From NCBI RefSeq assembly GCF_030812675.1, contig NZ_JAUSTE010000009.1, positions 1-64,000 on the forward strand: a stretch of 64,000 nucleotides of DNA. The letters run 5' to 3'. Each line of letters opens with the position of its first letter. The first letter of the stretch is position 1. The notes beneath the pieces were generated by a model, which worked only from the letters and a program-made list of their open reading frames with translations, did not search any database and was not told the DNA's origin. The DNA is from Sinomonas atrocyanea. GTDB lineage: Bacteria; Actinomycetota; Actinomycetes; Actinomycetales; Micrococcaceae. This document shows, piece after piece, positions 3,510 through 64,000 of the stretch. The position numbers were made by a program, and so were the translations under genes.

Positions 3510-4517
3510 TCAGGCGGGGCGGTTGACGGCCGGCAGCGAGCCGGTCGCGAGGTCCGCCGCCGGCAGGGCCTCCGGCGCGGAGTCGGGGACCACGGCGGCG
3601 GCCGGGGCGCGGAGCTCGTCCATGCGCACCATGATCACGCCTGCCACGATGAGCGCGCCGCCCACGAACTGCACCGGGCCCGGGACGTCGCCGATCATGA
3701 TCCACGAGGCGACGACCGAGAAGAGCACCTCGGTGAGCGAGACGAAGCTCGCGACCTTCGAGCCGAGCCGCTGGGTGCCGATGATCCCGAAGGTGTAGGC
3801 GAGCACCGCGGCGACGAGCGTGATCCCCACCAACGGGACCAGCCAGCTGACCTCGCCGCCCAGGAGTTGGACGGTGCCGAACGTCGCCTCGAGCGGCAGC
3901 AGCCCGACGAGGGCCAGCACGCCGATCGTGAGGGCGCCGGAGACCATCCCGCCGGCCACGGTCACGAGGGGCGGCAGGACGCCGTCGGACTTCGCGGAGA
4001 GGACGAAGTAGACAGCGAGGCAGACCGCCGCCGCGACGCCCCACAGCACCCCGACCGGATCGACGTGCTGGGCGCTCATGAGGTCCAGGACCAGCACGAG
4101 CCCGAGCATCGCCGTCACGGTCCCGAGGATGGTCAGGGTTCCCGGGCGGTGCCGCGTGCGCAGCCAGGCCCAGCCCACGAGGATGATCGGGGCGAGGTAC
4201 TCGAGCATCAGCGCCACCGGCGGGCTCATGCGCGCGACGGCATTGAAGTAGAAGAACTGGCACAGCGCGATGGCGATCGCGCCGTAGGCCGCCATGAGGG
4301 CCACGCCGCCCCGCAGCCGCGGCCACTGCCCACGCATCATCCACACCGCGGGGACCGCCATCACGAGGGCGGCGAGCCCGACCCGGCCGCCGACCACCGC
4401 GCCGGGCGTCCACCCGGCCTCGAGCAGCGACTTCCCGAGCGGCCCCGACACGCCGAATGTGGCGGCGGACAGCAGGGCGAAGACGAGGCCGGATGCAGAA
4501 CGGTTCGCGGACAGCAC
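3510..4517 (-). CDS. EamA/DMT-family transporter
   Basis: This 335-residue integral membrane protein has about ten hydrophobic helices in two repeats of the drug/metabolite transporter fold. The first repeat begins with the family pattern LLSAATFGVSGPLGKSLLEAG, and the phrase LMLEYLAPIILVGWAWL is typical of EamA proteins of the RhtA type, which export amino acids or related metabolites. The substrate cannot be read from sequence. The C-terminal 50 residues form a polar Ala/Pro-rich tail. The start is GTG 4517 with GGGAGGTG upstream. It is divergent from a CGNR-type regulator 81 bases away that may control it; the spaced half-sites TGTCAT (4538-4543) and ATGACA (4565-4570) lie in that gap. Confidence 0.85.
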   Translation of the reverse strand: MLSANRSASGLVFALLSAATFGVSGPLGKSLLEAGWTPGAVVGGRVGLAALVMAVPAVWMMRGQWPRLRGGVALMAAYGAIAIALCQFFYFNAVARMSPPVALMLEYLAPIILVGWAWLRTRHRPGTLTILGTVTAMLGLVLVLDLMSAQHVDPVGVLWGVAAAVCLAVYFVLSAKSDGVLPPLVTVAGGMVSGALTIGVLALVGLLPLEATFGTVQLLGGEVSWLVPLVGITLVAAVLAYTFGIIGTQRLGSKVASFVSLTEVLFSVVASWIMIGDVPGPVQFVGGALIVAGVIMVRMDELRAPAAAVVPDSAPEALPAADLATGSLPAVNRPA

Positions 4518-56746: not shown

Positions 56747-57721
56747 GTGAGCACTGCAGAGACGAGCGCAGAGATCCGCGACGTCATCGTCGTCGGTTCG
56801 GGTCCCGCGGGGTACACCGCTGGCATCTATACCGCGCGAGCCAACCTGAATCCGTTGATCTTCGCGGGTTCCGTGACCGCCGGCGGTGAGCTCATGAACA
56901 CCACCGAGGTCGAGAACTTCCCCGGCTTCCCTGAGGGGATCCAGGGCCCCGAGCTCATGGACAAGTTCGAGCAGCAGGCCTCGAAGTTCGGCGCCCAGAT
57001 CGAATTCGAGGACGTTGAGTCGCTCGAGCTCGAGGGCGACATCAAGACGGTGACCCTCTCCGGTGGTGAGTCCTACAGGGCACGCACGGTGATCATCGCG
57101 ACCGGCTCCGCGTACCGCGAACTCGGCCTCCCGAATGAGAAGCGCCTGTCGGGCCACGGCGTCAGCTGGTGTGCGACCTGCGATGGATTCTTCTTCAAGG
57201 ACCAGGACATCGCCGTCATCGGCGGCGGCGACTCCGCGATGGAGGAGGCGCTCTTCCTCACCAAGTTCGCTCGCTCGGTCACCGTGGTGCACCGGCGCGA
57301 TTCGCTGCGGGCCTCCAAGATCATGGCCGACCGTGCGCTCGCCCACGAGAAGATCACCTTCGTGTGGAACTCCGAGGTCGCAGACGTGGTCGGCGGCGAC
57401 AAGGTGACGGGTCTCAAGCTCCGCAACCTCGTCGACGGGAGCGAGTCCGAGATCGCCGTGACCGGCGTCTTCGTGGCCATCGGCAACGATCCCCGGACGA
57501 GCCTCGTCAAGGACGTTCTCGAGCTCACCCCAGAAGGGACGATCGCCGTCGAGGGCCGATCCTCCAAGACGAGCATCCCGGGCGTCTTCGCCGCCGGTGA
57601 CGTCGTCGACCCCACGTACCGGCAGGCGATCACTGCAGCCGGTTCGGGTTGTGTCGCCGCCCTGGACGTCGAGCACTATCTCGCGGACGTCGAAGCTCGT
57701 TCCCTCGCCGCACAGTCCTGA
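56747..57721 (+). CDS. trxB: Thioredoxin-disulfide reductase
   Basis: This 324-residue flavoprotein uses NADPH to reduce thioredoxin. The FAD-binding motif is [20 protein letters not shown], the redox motif CATC is in VSWCATCDG, and the NADPH-binding motif is [40 protein letters not shown] is the FAD-binding C-terminus. The length is typical. GTG 56747 is preceded by AAGAGG. It is followed by trxA 27 bases downstream in the same operon. Confidence 0.96.
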
Positions 57722-57748
57722 GCCCCCCTACAGATCGGAACAGAAGAG

Positions 57749-58078
57749 ATGAGCAACGCCAAGAACGTTACCGATGCCGAGTTCACCGACAAGGTCCTCA
57801 TGTCCGAAAAGCCGGTCATTGTGGACTTTTGGGCCGAATGGTGCGGGCCGTGCCGCAAGCTCGGCCCCATCCTCGATGACATCTCCGTCGAGTACGCCGA
57901 CAAAGTTGATGTGGTGAAGGTCGATGTCGACAACAACCCGAACATCGCTGCCGAGTACGGCATCACCTCCATTCCTGCGGTTTACCTCTTTGAGAAGGGC
58001 AAGGTGACCGGAACGGTCATCGGTGCGCGGCCCAAGCAGTACTTCGAGAAGGAGTGGAACGAGGTCCTCGCGAAGTAG
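57749..58078 (+). CDS. trxA: Thioredoxin
   Basis: This 109-residue thioredoxin-fold protein reduces disulphides in target proteins with the active site WCGPCRK. It lies in a VIVDFWAEWCGPC context typical of the family and has the cis-Pro loop ITSIPAVYLF. It is encoded 27 bases after trxB and ends the operon, which is followed by a T-tract terminator. Confidence 0.97.
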   Translation: MSNAKNVTDAEFTDKVLMSEKPVIVDFWAEWCGPCRKLGPILDDISVEYADKVDVVKVDVDNNPNIAAEYGITSIPAVYLFEKGKVTGTVIGARPKQYFEKEWNEVLAK

Positions 58079-58102
58079 ATACTTCGGAGAGCCCCACGCT
58101 CC

Positions 58103-58131
58103 AGGGGAGGACGCGCGTTGCGTCCTCCCCT
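58103..58131 (+). terminator. Rho-independent terminator of trxB-trxA
   Basis: A perfect 12-bp stem (AGGGGAGGACGC and complement) with a five-base loop is followed by TTTTT, the standard intrinsic terminator form, 24 bases after the trxA stop. Confidence 0.9.
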
Positions 58132-58207
58132 TTTTCTATGCCCGGGTTCTTCGGTGCACCGGCTCACTGGGTCCAAAAGGCTCATCAAAGGTGGGCCCTT
58201 CAGCGGG

Positions 58208-58223
58208 CGTTTCACGTGAAACA
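58208..58223. other. parS site 1
   Basis: CGTTTCACGTGAAACA matches the parS consensus TGTTTCACGTGAAACA with one mismatch at the first base. It is the parS most distant from parB. Confidence 0.92.
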
Positions 58224-58626
58224 CGACGTTCCGGTTATGCGAACCGAACGGGGACGTCTCAGCGAGATGCCGCCGACCAGCAGCCCTCCCGATACCCATT
58301 TCAAGCGCATTCCTGAAGCGTCGGGATGTGTAGGGCCAGCACGCTAGGGCACCCGCCGCTTCCCACCCGGAGAAGCGCGCGCCGCGAACCGGGGGTAAGG
58401 CCGTCGCGCTGACCCAATGGGAGGGGCGCGCGGCGCTCCGCAGGGCTTGGGCGGTTCGGTGAGCTTTGGCGAGCCCAGTGGCTGCTGCAATCCCGCACTT
58501 CGTGCGAAGGCGGCTCATCTTTCATTATCGGTAACAGACCTCCTGTGCGCGGTGTCTGAAAGCGGTGCCTAAAGTGCGCGAGCTCCCGGTCACGCCATGA
58601 GATGCGTCGCGGGCGGATTCCCGTCT

Positions 58627-58642
58627 TGTTTCACGTGAAACA
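58627..58642. other. parS site 2 (perfect)
   Basis: TGTTTCACGTGAAACA is an exact 16-base consensus parS and the only perfect one in the window, so it may be the strongest nucleation site for ParB spreading. Confidence 0.96.
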
Positions 58643-59713
58643 GTGCGCTGCTTCAGGTGGCGGCATCGGACGATCCGGGGTGGTGCGATTCGTTCAGACA
58701 CGTGGCTGAGACATCGTGCCGTCCACGCAAGGTGCGGAGGGCAGCGCGCTCTTTGACAGACCCTTCGATGGATAGTGGCCTGTGCGCAGAGCTCACCTGA
58801 GGAGCCGACACGTCGCCTCATACCCGCGGACGGCCCTCAAGACCGCTCAGCGCAAACCGTTCATCCGCGACGCCCAGCCGGTCGCAACTCTCCAGATACG
58901 ATCCTCCGTACGTGCCGACACTACGCTCGCCGACCGCCATATGGAATGCGGGCGGACCCATACCCGGCTGCGGCACCAGAAGATGGCGGAGCCAGCCATT
59001 GGCACACGATCTGACAAGCGAGCCCGGGCGACTAGTGAGATCTGGTCCTCGCGCTCGTACAGATCCGTGCAACGGTGCGAGTCTGCGGAACGGCGCGCTT
59101 TCCGAGGTAAACCTCGTTGAGCCTCTCTCCACTGCGGCCGGCCCGTTCCTCGAACTTCTATCTGCGTGAACAGAGGAGCCGTCGGCTCAGTCCACCGCGA
59201 TGGTGACCGCGTCGCGGTGAGCCCATATCCTGTGAGAATCTGACGGAACGCCCAGTGCTCGAGACACCTCCTCCTGATGATCAAGCGGTCGTCGTTCCTG
59301 ACAGACGGGCCAAGCAGGGCGAGGATCATCGGGCCGTCTCTTCCTCCACGTCGCCGTCCGGGCACTACGACAGTCTGGTCCAGGTGCGGCCCGCCACTTC
59401 TCAGCTCCTTCCATCGGGGACCGGGGCGATACACGGGCTCGAGTGCAACGGCCTCCTCCTCCCCACCGTCACGCACCCGTGCCCCCTTTGTTGCGCGGCG
59501 TCATTCATGCTAGATGGTGCACGCATGGCCGATGGTGAGTCTTTACCCTCACAGTGCGGGGCAAGCGCGGTGTGAGAAGTTTTCCCCTGCTCCGTCGGCC
59601 CGCTCATCCGGGCGGGCTAAGCAGCTCACCCGCGCGTTCCCAGTCGACTGATCGCCCCGTCCTAAAAGTGGGGCGGACCCGCCGCGCTGGAATACGGCGC
59701 CCATTGGTCGAGC

Positions 59714-59729
59714 GGTTTCACGTGAAACA
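59714..59729. other. parS site 3
   Basis: GGTTTCACGTGAAACA differs from consensus at the first base only. It lies 63 bases before the first DnaA box. Confidence 0.92.
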
Positions 59730-60016
59730 TGTCGCCATGACACTGCCTAGGCGGCACTTCGACACTCGCGGGAGGCTAGGCATCCACTGGCTTATCCACA
59801 TCCGTTCTGGAACGGACCGCGGTTCTCCACAGAGTTATCCACAGTCGGTATCCACAGAGGCCTGTCAGAAGCTCGCGGATCTCACTCAGCACCTGGGGCA
59901 CGACACCGATGCTTCGCCGCGGCCCAGCCCACTTCGCCTGCCTTTCGTCCGCACTGCTGAAGGTCCTCCCGGCAGGCGTAAGCCGGCGTGTGGACCCGCC
60001 TATGGGGTTTCCGCCC

Positions 60017-60056
60017 TTGAATTCGGCCGTTTCCGGTCTACTTTCGATGCAGGAGG
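60017..60056 (+). promoter_or_regulatory. Promoter and Shine-Dalgarno of the 28-codon gene
   Basis: A -35 TTGAAT (60017-60022) and -10 TACTTT (60039-60044) stand 16 bases apart. AGGAGG follows at 60051-60056, five bases before the ATG at 60062. This is the best promoter-plus-ribosome-site combination in the gene-poor region. Confidence 0.55.
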
Positions 60057-60061
60057 CTCAC

Positions 60062-60148
60062 ATGACGAGGTCACAGGTTCGCGGGAAAACTCGTTCGCGA
60101 CGCCTCGGGCGCCGGGCAGCTGTCGCCGCGAGGCGGTGTACTGGGTAG
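60062..60148 (+). CDS. Candidate 28-residue basic peptide
   Basis: The frame starts MTRSQVRGKTRSRRLGRRAA and has ten Lys/Arg residues among 28, with one Cys near the end. It lies between the two groups of DnaA boxes and has a promoter, an AGGAGG and a five-base spacer. No family is recognised. A short cationic peptide could bind DNA or RNA, but this is inference. The rest of the region shows no comparable small gene. Confidence 0.45.
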   Translation: MTRSQVRGKTRSRRLGRRAAVAARRCTG

Positions 60149-60803
60149 GAAATGGCGGAGGAGCGGTCTTCCGAGGGCCACATAATGGATCTCGCCGCCA
60201 CTATCCCCAGCTGCTATCCACAGCGTTATCCACAGCCGGCCGTCGCGAGGCTCTCCGGTGATCACAGGGATATCCACAGCGGCAGCGCTGAGCACCTGCG
60301 GTCACAGCAGCGACGGTTCCGCCGCGGCGGGGCTGACGGCAGTGTGCGTTCTGCGCGCAGAGCCAGCCCATTCGGCCGAATGCACAGCGTCATGAGGCCG
60401 CCGACGCTGCCGTCCGCAAGGTAGAACAAGTTCAGAATGAACGGACTCCACGAGTGGCTGGTCCATGTCTATCTGCGCTGCTATCACTCATCTGTGACCG
60501 GTCTGCCCGTCGCGCCGCCCGCTGGTACAAGGGACCTACGCACGTGCATGTCCTGGTCCTTGCCACCGATTCCTCACGCTCCTGAAAAGGCGTCATTTTG
60601 GGCGCACCAGCTGGCGACCGCTGCGCAGTTGACGGAGAGATCTTGCGCCAGCTCCGGAAGAGGAGCGTCCTCTCCAAAAGACAGCTCAGAGGCTGAGTGA
60701 CGGCCCACCAGAGCGCGAGGACGGATGAGGGTCATTTCGGCGCGCCGAGCCGTCGCACGCCAGCGGCCAAACGCGTGCTTGGCAGTGCTGACACAACGTC
60801 CGC

Positions 60804-60819
60804 TGTTTCACGTGAAACG
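60804..60819. other. parS site 4
   Basis: TGTTTCACGTGAAACG differs from consensus at the last base only. Confidence 0.92.
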
Positions 60820-61116
60820 CTGCCGTGCACGCTCTCCGGCCGCCACGGTATACAGGCAATACCGCGAGTACCCACTATTCGCCGGAAACGACCGGGCAGA
60901 TGTGGGCCTGAACCACTTTGGCGTCGACAGCGGTTTTATGGCTAACGGCCATAGCGCCGGCGCCGCGGCGTCGCGAAAGCCGGCGATTCGCTGCCCCATG
61001 CGAAAACAAGTCGACTCGGCCTACTGCCGGGATTGCTGGCAGGCTTCGAACAGCGCACGTTCATCGGCGAACGGCCGCATCATCCTAACCGGTGCCACCC
61101 GGGAGCGCGGCGCGGC

Positions 61117-61132
61117 CGTTTCACGTGAAACA
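61117..61132. other. parS site 5
   Basis: CGTTTCACGTGAAACA differs from consensus at the first base only. Confidence 0.92.
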
Positions 61133-61578
61133 CCGAAGGGCTTCTCAACAGGTGAGCGGAAGGTGGGCGCAAATTGGAGCGATGCTCGTTGCTGCCCACG
61201 ACAGAACAGCGACTTTTATGGAGCGGTGAGCACGGTGGGTCCGGAAGAAGACTGAGCCTCCTGCGTGCACTCGGCGCAATTCCAGTACACCTTCTTCCTT
61301 TGATCTGTAGCGGTCGGATCAGGAGCGGAACAGAAATGATGCAACCGCCGCGACAATCGAGTGGAGCACTGTCCAGCTCCCAGCTCTCACGCCAACCGCA
61401 GTCTGATGCCTGTCGAACCCATAAGCGGTCTGGCCTGCAGATGAGATGACTCTCATCCGCACCGTCAACCCGGTACCACCCCGTTACATGCAGGCGCCCT
61501 ACCCCTCGAACGCGACAAGCACCGCCGGCAGCAACGTCATCACTCGTCACTGTGCGAAACCATAGAACGGTGACGAGA

Positions 61579-61633
61579 CGGCGCGCCGTGTGCTTTTCTG
61601 ACCGGTCGGCGCGCCGTGTGCGTTCTGACTAGT
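61579..61633 (+). repeat. Tandem direct repeat of about 28 bp
   Basis: CGGCGCGCCGTGTGC occurs at 61579-61593 and again at 61607-61621, each followed by a similar TTCTGAC-type tail. The two units are adjacent. It lies between parS site 5 and parB and may be a remnant of a duplication. Confidence 0.7.
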
Positions 61634-62018
61634 CGGCTCACCAGGGAAGTCGACCAGTCAGGCCCACTGTGCGCGGAGGGCGCGCTCCGCATCTTGGAGG
61701 GCGACCGGTACCGCAACGGTGATCCGAAAAGGTCAGCGGGGGTCGGATCCTGTCAGGAGAACGTCTTACCGGTGGCCGCAGCCAGGCGCAGGACACGACG
61801 ACAAATTCCTGGCCCACCAGAGCAGGTACAGCACCGCCGATGAGTCAATCTTCTGAGAAATATGTCTGCGCAAAACGGGGCACAATGCACAGCCCCACAA
61901 ACGGTGAAACTCACGATGAGCAGTTTTGCCGTCCAGTGCTGAGACGTGTCTCGGTAACAAGGGACGTCTTTGCGACTGCAGAGCCCCACATTGGCCGAGC
62001 CGCATCAGCCAAAAACAA

Positions 62019-62042
62019 GGCCCGTTTCACGTGAAACGGGCC
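62019..62042. other. parS site 6 within a 24-bp palindrome beyond parB
   Basis: The parS core at 62023-62038 (CGTTTCACGTGAAACG, two end mismatches) sits in a perfect 24-base palindrome, symmetrical to GGCC ends. It lies 26 bases downstream of the parB stop and could also serve as a terminator hairpin for parB. Confidence 0.85.
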
Positions 62043-62068
62043 CTGTGCGATGTCAGCGAGCAAAAACG

Positions 62069-63286
62069 CTATTCCTCTTCGGGGCTGATCAGCGTCATGA
62101 TGCGGTTGAGATCCTCCACGGAGGCAAACTCGATGCTGACCTTGCCCTTCCGTGCTCCGAGGGTGATCTTCACGTTCGTGTCGAGACGATCCGCCAGATT
62201 CGAGGCCAAGAAGTCGAGCCGCTCGTGCCGGGCGTTGTTCCGCGTCGATGCGCGCCGCGCCTCCTGAGGCTCCTGATACAGGGCCACGGCTTCCTCGGTG
62301 GCGCGCACCGACAGACCCTCGGCAACAATCTTCTGAGCGATGCGCTCCATTGCAGCGTCGTCAGGCAGGGACAGGAGTGCCCTCGCATGGCCGGCGCTGA
62401 GCACGCCTGCGGCCACCCGACGCTGGACGAGCGGCGGAAGGCGGAGCAGCCGGATGGTGTTGGAGACCTGGGGCCGTGAGCGGCCGAGGCGATCCGCGAG
62501 CTCCTCGTGCGTAGTTCCGAAGTCCTGGAGGAGCTGCTGGTAGGCAGCTGCCTCTTCAAGGGGGTTCAGCTGGCTCCGGTGGAGGTTCTCGAGGAGCGCG
62601 TCGCGGAGCAGGGCGTCGTCACCTGTCTCGCGGACGATCGCCGGGATAGCGGTCAGTCCTGCGGCCTTCGCCGCCCGCCAGCGCCGCTCGCCCATGACGA
62701 GTTCATAGCTTTCGCTACCGGGCTCGGTTGACTTCCTGACAACGATCGGCTGCAGGATCCCGATCTCACGCACTGAGTGCACGAGCTCCGCCATGTCGTC
62801 CTCATCGAAGACCGTACGGGGCTGCTTCCGGTTGGGGTGGATGTCGTCCACGCCGACTTCGGCGAACTGGGCTCCCGGAACCTCGACGAGGTCGAGCTCG
62901 TCCTCCGCCGGTGCGCGCTTTGCCCGGGAACGGCCCGCGCGTGGCTGAGGCTGCCCGGGGGCCGATGAGTCGACCGCGGGGCTGTCCTCCCCGGGATCGG
63001 CGTCTGCGTCGACAGAGGAGGGCCCGGAGGCAGGAAGATCCGCAGACGACGCAGAGGACCCCGCAGTGCCCCGACTGTCACGGTCACCGGTCGAGGCCTG
63101 CGCGTCATCCATGGTCTCGGCATCAGGAGTCTCCGCCTGCTCCTGCGACCCCTGAGCGGTCCGGCGCCCCGTGTCGGGGAAGAACAGGTCGACGGGGCGC
63201 GACGGCGTCGTCGAGCCGCTAGCCGGGGCCGTGCTCGGGATGAGGGCTCCCAAGCCCCGGCCGAGTCCTCGGCGCTTCTCGCTCAT
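62069..63286 (-). CDS. parB: Chromosome partitioning protein ParB
   Basis: This 405-residue CTPase binds parS and loads onto DNA as a sliding clamp. The N-terminus [18 protein letters not shown] is the ParA-interacting tail. A disordered Ser/Ala/Asp/Glu-rich stretch (about residues 20-110) is longer than in many ParBs. The core has the CTP motif Gly199-Glu-Arg-Arg202 ([11 protein letters not shown]), [21 protein letters not shown], a helix-turn-helix ([24 protein letters not shown]) and a C-terminal dimer domain. ATG 63286 follows GGGAGGAAA. Confidence 0.96.
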
Positions 63287-63365
63287 AGCGGTTTCCTCCC
63301 TTGAGCCCGATCGCCCGGGCACTGGCTGTTCACAGGTGGTGCGAGACGGATGACCCGCCGACGAG

Positions 63366-64000
63366 CTAGCGTTCCGCGATCTCTGCCGCGGCCTCGAGGT
63401 ACGACAATGCACCCGTCGACGTCGGATCGTAGGTCAGCACCGTCTGCTGGTAGCTGGGGGCTTCGGAAATCCGCACGGAACGCGGCACCACGGCCTCCAG
63501 GACCTGCTCGGGGAAATGCTCGCGCACCTCTGCCGCTACCTGGGCAGCGAGGTTCGTCCGACCGTCGTACATCGTCAGGAGGATCGTCGAGACGCGCAGG
63601 TCGGCGTTGAGGTGCTTCTGGATCATCTCGATGTTCTTGAGCAACTGGCTCAGTCCCTCGAGGGCGTAGTACTCGCACTGGATCGGGATCAGGACCTCGG
63701 TCGCAGCACAGAAGGCATTGACGGTGAGGAGGCCGAGGCTCGGCGGGCAGTCGATGAAGATGTAGTCGAGGCGTTCGAGGCCGGCCTTCTCACGCTCGGC
63801 GGCGTAGTTGTCGATGGCGCGGCGCAGACGCTGCTCGCGCGCCACCAGCGAGACCAGCTCGATCTCGGCACCTGCCAGGTGGATGGTCGCCGGCGCGCAG
63901 ACCAGGTTCTCCACGTCGGGGCACGGGGCGACGACGTCCTTCAGCGGGGCATCGTTGATGAGGACGTCGTAGATGCTCTCGACTTCTGAGTGGTGCTCGA
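63366..64000 (-). CDS. parA: Chromosome partitioning ATPase ParA (partial, start outside)
   Basis: The gene is cut by the right edge, so about 211 C-terminal residues are visible and the N-terminal Walker A is missing. The Walker B-like motif [29 protein letters not shown] and [16 protein letters not shown] are the signature of ParA/Soj. It forms a gradient on the nucleoid and moves ParB-parS complexes. Its stop is 79 bases before the parB start, and they form one operon. Confidence 0.95.

Follow-up and report, generated by a model that had tools for sequence, protein, structure and literature searches.

The DNA between trxA and parB of Sinomonas atrocyanea is probably a centromere shielded from transcription, in which a DnaA-binding site of the datA/DARS kind is embedded, and not the replication origin. 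The window analyzed was a 64,000-nucleotide stretch in which the two convergent genes bound a gene-free gap. A parS array, a missing coding signal, predicted terminators, a hairpin, a DnaA-box cluster and a layout conserved among relatives are established at the sequence level and support the reading of the gap as a gene-free chromosome-organization site. We infer a role in the control of DnaA and, with the least certainty, a coupling between ParB and DnaA. The features are as follows.

57749-58078, + strand: trxA, thioredoxin (Pfam PF00085), left boundary
58079-62068, no strand assigned: trxA-parB gap, 3,990 bp, gene-free, with parS and DnaA boxes and convergent flanking genes
58103-58131, + strand: intrinsic terminator of trxA, directed into the gap, 13-pair stem and T run
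58209-58222, no strand assigned: parS-1, exact 14-mer (motif scan)
58628-58641, no strand assigned: parS-2, exact 14-mer inside the full 16-mer consensus at 58627-58642 (motif scan)
59715-59728, no strand assigned: parS-3, exact 14-mer adjoining DnaA sub-cluster I (motif scan)
59792-59856, + strand: DnaA sub-cluster I, boxes at 59792, 59823, 59835 and 59848
60214-60278, + strand: DnaA sub-cluster II, boxes at 60214, 60226 and 60270
60805-60818, no strand assigned: parS-4, exact 14-mer (motif scan)
61118-61131, no strand assigned: parS-5, exact 14-mer (motif scan)
62015-62046, - strand: parB intrinsic terminator, parS-6 at its apex, 14-pair stem, loop of 4 and T-rich tail
62024-62037: parS-6, exact 14-mer that forms the apex of this hairpin (motif scan)
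62069-63286, - strand: parB (Pfam ParB_N, HTH_ParB, ParB_C), right boundary

parS array

The exact parS 14-mer, GTTTCACGTGAAAC, occurred six times in the whole assembly (4,120,037 bp in 32 contigs), each time in the gap, and the reversed 14-mer, used as a control, had no exact match in the same assembly. Places with up to two mismatches to the 12-mer numbered nine beyond the six and 11 for the reversed control, which is chance level. A sequence-only reading of this DNA had reported six core copies, correctly placed at the starts of the surrounding 16-mers. Its remark that one copy was perfect holds for the full 16-mer TGTTTCACGTGAAACA, matched at 58627-58642 only among the six sites, and not for the 14 bp, over which all six are perfect. 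Across 15 Sinomonas genomes, 85 of 91 exact parS were in the gap, and the remaining six were on the parA side, ∼2.2 kb upstream. As in a centromere, where exact palindromic parS cluster near oriC by parAB, six of six sites stood beside parB, about 8 to 12 kb from the dnaA-dnaN spacer, and the neighboring parB encodes the ParB_N and HTH_ParB domains (Pfam).

Layout in related genomes

Comparisons centered on a clade of Sinomonas and Arthrobacter-type loci made up of 35 rows that group together on the ParB tree (support 81, not starred) and of L061, which was placed by name; L005 may share its species with one of the Sinomonas genomes. All 36 loci had a gap of 3.05 to 9.15 kb carrying 4 to 11 parS, 33 of the gaps were without a coding-like ORF, and none of the 246 gap parS fell inside a called ORF. 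The sequence-only reading had suggested comparing the spacing and parS number in relatives, and had held that a similar span without parS in close relatives would speak against it; a parS-bearing gap was shared by 36 of the 36 clade loci and a parS-free span was found in none. Outside the family, relatives had genes between trxA and parB, and parS were absent there in 32 of 33 loci. Two gap genes of the outgroup loci L049 and L051 resembled, as judged by eye rather than by a family search, a D-Ala-D-Ala ligase and an aminotransferase gene.

DnaA-box cluster

Seven DnaA boxes with at most one mismatch were located on one strand between 59792 and 60278. Sub-cluster I held two exact boxes (TTATCCACA) and two with one mismatch, and sub-cluster II one exact box and two with one mismatch; each coincided with an island conserved in other gaps (59789-59855 and 60203-60279, respectively). 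Only two tandem TATCCACA pairs were present in the assembly, both in the gap. The cluster was identified in 35 of 95 loci, all from the clade, and in the 36th clade locus a transposase-like frame splits the boxes apart. Boxes in the clade clusters shared one strand in 184 of 193 cases, and none of 475 shuffled gaps reached the cluster threshold. The center of the cluster was at 0.484 ± 0.048 of the gap length in 30 loci, this arm-length test having dropped L012 and L021 (contig ends in the gap), L121 (a near copy of L120), and L027 and L114 (coding insert). Other Micrococcaceae with long parS gaps had no DnaA cluster, and the cluster is therefore not required for a centromere.

A rather unlikely alternative is that the gap is an ordinary parS cluster in leftover DNA, its ancestral genes lost, newcomers barred by ParB silencing and its boxes without a role in initiation. 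The outgroup gap genes and their missing parS fit such a history, yet a tblastn search for remnants of the L049 and L051 genes in Micrococcaceae gaps gave no matches at an E value of <0.01. Gap DNA was barely alignable, even inside Sinomonas, with blastn returning short islands (20 candidates were scored per genome in one search), and transposase-like frames were tolerated in the gaps of L007 and L114; against this, the gap persisted at a length of at least 3 kb in 36 of 36 clade loci while most other letters changed, and box number, strand and central position were conserved amid change in the remaining gap DNA. Equal arms around the cluster could also have arisen if non-coding DNA grew or shrank throughout a lineage. 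According to the passages of PMC7022226 cited here, ParB of Pseudomonas aeruginosa represses genes near parS, and such silencing, as a reverse cause, would also leave the region empty. In the cited part of a modeling paper (PMC10387095), transcription seems to leave the ParB under study largely undisturbed, and it may matter little for ParB.

The gap is probably not a replication origin. A functional or second origin with the DnaA cluster as its initiator-binding core would suit the tandem, one-strand arrangement of the boxes, and the clustering seen at an oriC is present: in 12 of 12 readable Sinomonas loci the gap carried 4 to 7 one-strand boxes against a total of 2 to 3 in the dnaA-dnaN spacer (seven and two, respectively, in the S. 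atrocyanea window). However, no AT-rich unwinding stretch lay by the gap boxes in any of these 12 loci. The minimum 50-bp G+C content was 0.44 to 0.50 in the gap and 0.30 to 0.40 in the dnaA-dnaN spacer, and the genes from parB to rnpA point away from dnaA-dnaN and hence towards an origin in the gap. Because of the missing AT-rich stretch and this gene direction, an oriC in the gap is improbable. The third-codon-position GC skew tracked gene strand and favored neither site.

Coding content

The next longest gene-free run measured 890 bp in the 64-kb window and at most 1,215 bp over 144 kb of the contig, with rnpA inside the latter run, undetected at the cutoff used. The codon score was negative for every gap ORF of at least 40 amino acids (−4.0 at best), and trxA reached +56. 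The score, for which the window and L005-L024 served as the training set, classed an average of 75% of the clade's DNA outside the gap as coding, so that it misses some genes, and it is less reliable in low-G+C relatives; the non-coding claim rests on the 36-locus clade. Rfam gave no matches at an E value of ≤1 across 57000-64000, and no sigma-70-like promoter match was found in the gap by a scan that is weak for actinobacteria. A six-frame tblastn search of the gap yielded 13 translated match rows, eight at the DnaA islands and five at the gap ends, and words enriched across 35 gaps were DnaA-box-like, inter-box or parS-like. Codon scoring, Rfam, tblastn and word enrichment thus revealed only binding sites and terminators in the gap and no conserved protein or RNA gene, bearing out what the sequence-only reading had claimed. 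Its interpretation as a whole is supported in part, namely for a gene-free organization site and, more strongly than that reading knew, for its mention of DnaA; the one-strand DnaA cluster in mid-gap and the position of parS-6 inside the parB terminator go beyond it.

Long gene-free spans of compact genomes can be RNA genes. Even allowing for promoter types other than sigma-70, which are outside the reach of the scan, an unrecognized protein gene or long structured RNA filling the gap was already disfavored and is scarcely plausible, given the Rfam, codon and promoter results, the short blastn islands and the confinement of translated matches to the DnaA islands and gap ends.

Terminators and the parS-6 hairpin

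The island around the trxA terminator (58098-58143) was conserved in genome G003. The predicted parB terminator folds as RNA with −25.1 kcal/mol (z, −5.6) and, like other intrinsic (Rho-independent) terminators, has a GC-rich stem, a 4-base loop and a T-rich tail after the gene. In contrast to ordinary ones, it has a parS as its upper stem and loop, and these bases can double as a putative ParB loading site. The hairpin arms covaried among species, the stem being kept beyond the parS core by compensatory change. At pair positions 8 to 18, pairing was Watson-Crick in 79% of 38 non-identical cases, compared with 34% with re-dealt partners (maximum, 43% of 1,000) and 30% at other gap parS, and two-sided changes were found at 11 of 11 positions.

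A parS was within 110 bp of parB in 38 of 61 Micrococcaceae loci; L061, left out of the 61-row lists and the ParB tree, has none, its first parS being 293 bp from parB. With 14 changes on the ParB tree, this state is recurrent and not universal. By the criterion applied, T-rich tails in the parB direction followed 16 of 28 long-armed hairpins (12 had none). The opposite direction gave 5 of 28, and among other gap parS 9 of 285 had such a tail; under the stricter criterion used first, the count was 9 of 39. A gap free of transcription, which the sequence-only reading had proposed for the sake of undisturbed ParB spreading or DnaA binding, would fit the two inward-facing terminators and the lack of a sigma-70-like match.

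Proposed function and comparison with known systems

In the favored reading of a shielded centromere with a DnaA-binding site, ParB would load at the six parS and then slide or bridge across the gap, from which the two inward-facing terminators would exclude RNA polymerase. DnaA would bind the central cluster, whose replication soon after initiation would lower free DnaA. Origin-proximal titration or inactivation of DnaA, as at datA/DARS, is the most likely role of the cluster. The least certain step is that ParB loaded from both sides could compete with DnaA for the central boxes and so link initiation with segregation. A tentative extension is that this composite element couples segregation to initiation: ParB clamps from the flanking parS would sweep across the one-strand DnaA array, remodeling DnaA or driving it off, partition-complex assembly on new origins would reset DnaA activity, and the parS-terminator would insulate the element and may tie parB transcript ends to ParB occupancy.

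To our knowledge, datA and DARS of Escherichia coli are located away from any centromere. As described in the cited passages of PMC4585315, they are non-coding loci outside oriC that hold 3 to 6 DnaA boxes and tune the activity of DnaA. The gap cluster is likewise a non-coding DnaA-box cluster outside oriC; the E. coli loci need IHF or Fis sites and are marked by DnaA-ATP hydrolysis or ADP release, whereas the Sinomonas boxes are inside a parS array and were recognized from sequence alone. Corynebacterium glutamicum has ten parS over 35 kb, 73 kb from oriC, nine of them intergenic (PMC7083940, in part). These resemble the gap sites in being canonical, near oriC on one side and mostly intergenic, but they stand among genes, whereas the six sites here occupy one 4-kb gene-free block adjoining parB, a block that also contains the central DnaA cluster and the parS-terminator.

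In ori2-inc/parS2 of Vibrio cholerae, a centromere adjoins initiator-titrating sites, as proposed for the gap; ParB2, spreading out from parS2, there competes with RctB, the initiator (PMC6090056, in part). That system is on a secondary chromosome, uses RctB and 39-mers and is within the origin itself; the Sinomonas gap is on the main chromosome, carries DnaA boxes and is about 8 to 12 kb from the dnaA-dnaN spacer, its candidate ParB and DnaA sites lying close together. Soj-DnaA and ParB-DnaA contacts have also been described, and in Bacillus subtilis Soj/Spo0J, as in the proposed coupling, partition proteins act on DnaA; this works by protein contact, and DnaA boxes among parS are not described in the passages cited here (PMC7022226).

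Initiation-segregation links described in these passages are contacts of partition proteins with initiators and, on a secondary chromosome, the spreading of ParB across sites of the initiator. In this soil-bacterial clade, putative initiator and centromere sites share one gene-free, fast-evolving element of the main chromosome, and because they do, a link between initiation and segregation could be tested by DNA editing alone. The shared layout despite changed letters hints at a built-in tie of chromosome copying to separation. The parB hairpin provides an example of a parS doubling as a predicted transcription terminator, and comparison within the clade could show whether selection acts on the empty DNA that surrounds parS. 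Among the literature matches listed, as judged by title and the start of the abstract, none concerned Arthrobacter or Sinomonas parS, parS within a parB terminator, or the combination of parS array and DnaA cluster, and prior description of each is possible.

A fixed parS-to-box distance held in part only: a parS was 105 to 125 bp from a DnaA box in 18 of 35 loci, compared with a mean of 4.4 and a maximum of 11 under random parS placement (1,000 runs). The pattern TGTGGATA-N94-124-TTTCACGTGAAA was matched in 64 of 395 family genomes and in none with the reversed control; by hand count, these included 59 of the 77 genomes of group g9 and only 3 of 15 Sinomonas genomes.

The trxA-parB gap and its parS array

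The convergent trxA and parB genes of Sinomonas atrocyanea enclose 3,990 bp (58079 to 62068) without genes, compared with 890 bp for the second-longest gene-free run within the window. Features of the region were located as follows.

57749-58078, + strand, trxA, left boundary of the gap
62069-63286, - strand, parB, right boundary of the gap
58209, 58628, 59715, 60805, 61118 and 62024, six exact GTTTCACGTGAAAC parS sites, all inside the gap
62046-62015, - strand, predicted parB terminator with parS at its apex, 14-pair stem and T-rich tail
contig 68276-69700, dnaA
contig 70216, start of dnaN

Pfam supported the ParB, thioredoxin, DnaA and DnaN assignments, and within the named collection ParB was closest to that of Sinomonas cellulolyticus (76%), whose TrxA was 97% identical to that of the window. 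Scanning of the 4.12-Mb assembly identified the six sites in the gap as its only exact GTTTCACGTGAAAC sites, one of which matched the full 16-mer parS consensus; with two mismatches, the parS 12-mer occurred at 9 further places versus 11 for a reversed control, which is chance level. No positive codon score was obtained among gap ORFs of ≥40 aa, and an Rfam search at E ≤1 returned no match. Inside the gap, a 26-nt sequence containing GGCGCGCCGTGTG is directly repeated in two near-identical copies 28 bp apart (61571 to 61624). The gene-poor trxA-parB region with six parS sites described in the sequence-only reading is real and conserved, and richer than first described.

Layout of the locus across relatives

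The comparison set comprised 95 parB-trxA loci: the named collection supplied 80, and the remaining 15 belong to the window's genus group, with the window itself as one of them. In the clade of Sinomonas and the Arthrobacter-type group (36 loci), gaps were 3,052 to 9,145 bp (median, 5,168 bp), every one carried 4 to 11 parS sites, and each was longer than all other called noncoding runs of the same locus (36/36). Of 272 parS sites in these loci, 246 lay inside the gap, none of them in a called ORF. No coding-like ORF was found in 33 of the 36 gaps; the others carried frames judged by eye to be transposase-like (L007 and L114) or two frames without assignment (L027). The 533-aa frame of L114, a locus from the window's genus, lies 4,986 to 6,587 bp past the parB stop, near the trxA end of an otherwise gene-free gap.

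Across the 15 genus genomes, the gap contained 85 of 91 exact 14-mers; the other 6 were on the parA side, ∼2.2 kb upstream. These extra sites, one each in L115, L116, L117, L118, L123 and L124, sit ∼2.2 to 2.3 kb upstream of the parB stop, and the window's genome has no such site. Among 26 loci from other Micrococcaceae, 16 carried two or more parS sites in a gap of ≥1.5 kb and 7 had a gap of ≤400 bp; outside the family, parS was present in the gap of 1 of 33 loci (L066).

A parS site within the predicted parB terminator

The parB terminator hairpin had a predicted RNA folding energy of −25.1 kcal/mol (z, −5.6), and a trxA terminator also points into the gap. No sigma-70-like promoter was matched in 57700 to 62300 (0.5 expected). 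A terminator scan of the same interval gave 7 candidates versus 2.7 in shuffles, so covariation carries more weight. A parS site lay ≤110 bp from the parB stop in 39 of 95 loci, and perfect arms of ≥11 were found at 28 of these 39 sites versus 13 of 285 other gap parS sites. At hairpin pair positions 8 to 18, outside the core, 79% of pairs were Watson-Crick (38 nonidentical cases), compared with 34% with reshuffled partners (maximum in 1,000 reshufflings, 43%) and 30% at other gap parS sites; two-sided changes were identified at all 11 positions. Among the 28 long-armed hairpins, a T-rich tail was present in the parB direction at 16 and in the reverse direction at 5, and of the 285 other gap parS sites 9 had one; a stricter first criterion identified tails at 9 of the 39 parB-proximal sites.

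The hairpin carried a degenerate parS in five loci (L010, L012, L020, L035 and L119), and certain other relatives have an apparently ordinary hairpin at parB. With 14 changes on the tree, the putative parS-terminator is recurrent rather than fixed. In L026, from Psychromicrobium silvestre, convergent parB and trxA are separated by 60 bp, all of which forms a single long parS-centered hairpin with perfect arms of 23, possibly a terminator shared by both genes.

Sequence conservation and the DnaA-box cluster

The layout is conserved and, judged by alignment, the gap sequence is not. When the genus was searched with the gap by BLASTN, with 20 candidates scored per genome, nonself matches were obtained in only 2 of 14 genomes (G003 and G005); these pieces of 25 to 48 bp corresponded to the trxA terminator, the parS/terminator next to parB, and the two stretches of DnaA boxes. 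In a more sensitive comparison, 11 of 37 gaps gave any match, and three islands were common to at least four gaps: the parB terminator and two stretches of DnaA boxes. The top enriched 7- to 9-mers in 35 clade gaps (181 kb) resembled DnaA boxes or parS or came from between the boxes.

DnaA binds TTATCCACA-type boxes. Seven, with ≤1 mismatch, were identified in the window's gap, all on the + strand (59792 to 60278); this cluster holds 3 of the assembly's 15 exact boxes, and the gap holds both of its tandem TATCCACA pairs. Such pairs were present in 13 of 15 genus genomes, 17 of the 21 in the gap and the remainder one each in G008, G010, G011 and G014. Using a threshold of ≥4 boxes per 600 bp, clusters were found in 35 of 95 loci, every one in the clade, with 184 of 193 boxes on one strand; none of 475 shuffled gaps reached this threshold. 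Box-to-box distances were mostly 12 to 13 bp (62 cases), with additional peaks at 24 to 25, 34 to 36 and 43 to 45 bp, and the two subclusters were 299 to 389 bp apart.

Across 30 loci, the cluster was centered at 0.484 ± 0.048 of the length of the gap. The lengths of the two arms were correlated (Spearman, 0.67; 0/2,000 permutations equally tight), and they remained so when taken as independent contrasts (r = 0.61, P = 4e−4; rank correlation, 0.47, P = 0.012; 20 of 28 agreeing in sign), a correlation that could also be obtained from lineage-wide growth or loss of noncoding DNA.

Relation to the replication origin and possible function

An ordinary oriC is expected in the dnaA-dnaN spacer, which, from the coordinates of the two genes, lies ∼8 to 12 kb from the gap. 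Both genes were readable in 12 of the 15 genus loci; there, this spacer held 2 to 3 boxes and a 50-bp stretch with a G+C content of 0.30 to 0.40; the gap cluster held 4 to 7 boxes, and no 50-bp stretch of the gap fell below 0.44 (0.44 to 0.50). The gap is therefore probably not the replication origin.

As sequence features, the array, absent coding signal, predicted inward terminators, box cluster and conserved layout are established. The gap may be insulated from transcription, its cluster may titrate or inactivate DnaA, and ParB and DnaA may compete there. In known systems, ParB loads at parS and then slides as a clamp (PMC10387095). Precedents have been described: in Vibrio cholerae, ParB2 spreading from parS2 competes with RctB (PMC6090056); DnaA is acted on by Soj, and contacts between ParB and DnaA have been reported for V. 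cholerae and Deinococcus radiodurans (PMC7022226); and Escherichia coli has noncoding DnaA-control loci (PMC4585315). Two accounts argue against a strong need for silence: in one model, transcription has largely no effect on ParB sliding (PMC10387095), and in Corynebacterium glutamicum ten parS sites, of which nine are intergenic, are scattered among genes over 35 kb (PMC7083940). As a parS cluster the gap is ordinary; it is set apart by a gene-free block of 3 to 9 kb, a one-strand DnaA cluster at its center and the putative parS-terminator, for which no earlier description was found in the literature searched, most subscription journals falling outside its coverage.

On a quick ParB tree the DnaA cluster required two changes, interpreted as a single gain followed by a single loss. 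The loss was placed in L007, where the two subclusters are separated by a 332-aa transposase-like frame (2,252 to 3,250 bp past the parB stop), flanked by boxes at 2,007 and 2,019 and at 3,858 and 3,870; there the cluster is thus interrupted, not lost, and the insertion provides a natural experiment on cluster spacing. The DnaA-box/parS spacing pattern was also matched once in each of G269 and G312, genomes from other genera of the family that fall outside the two main groups.
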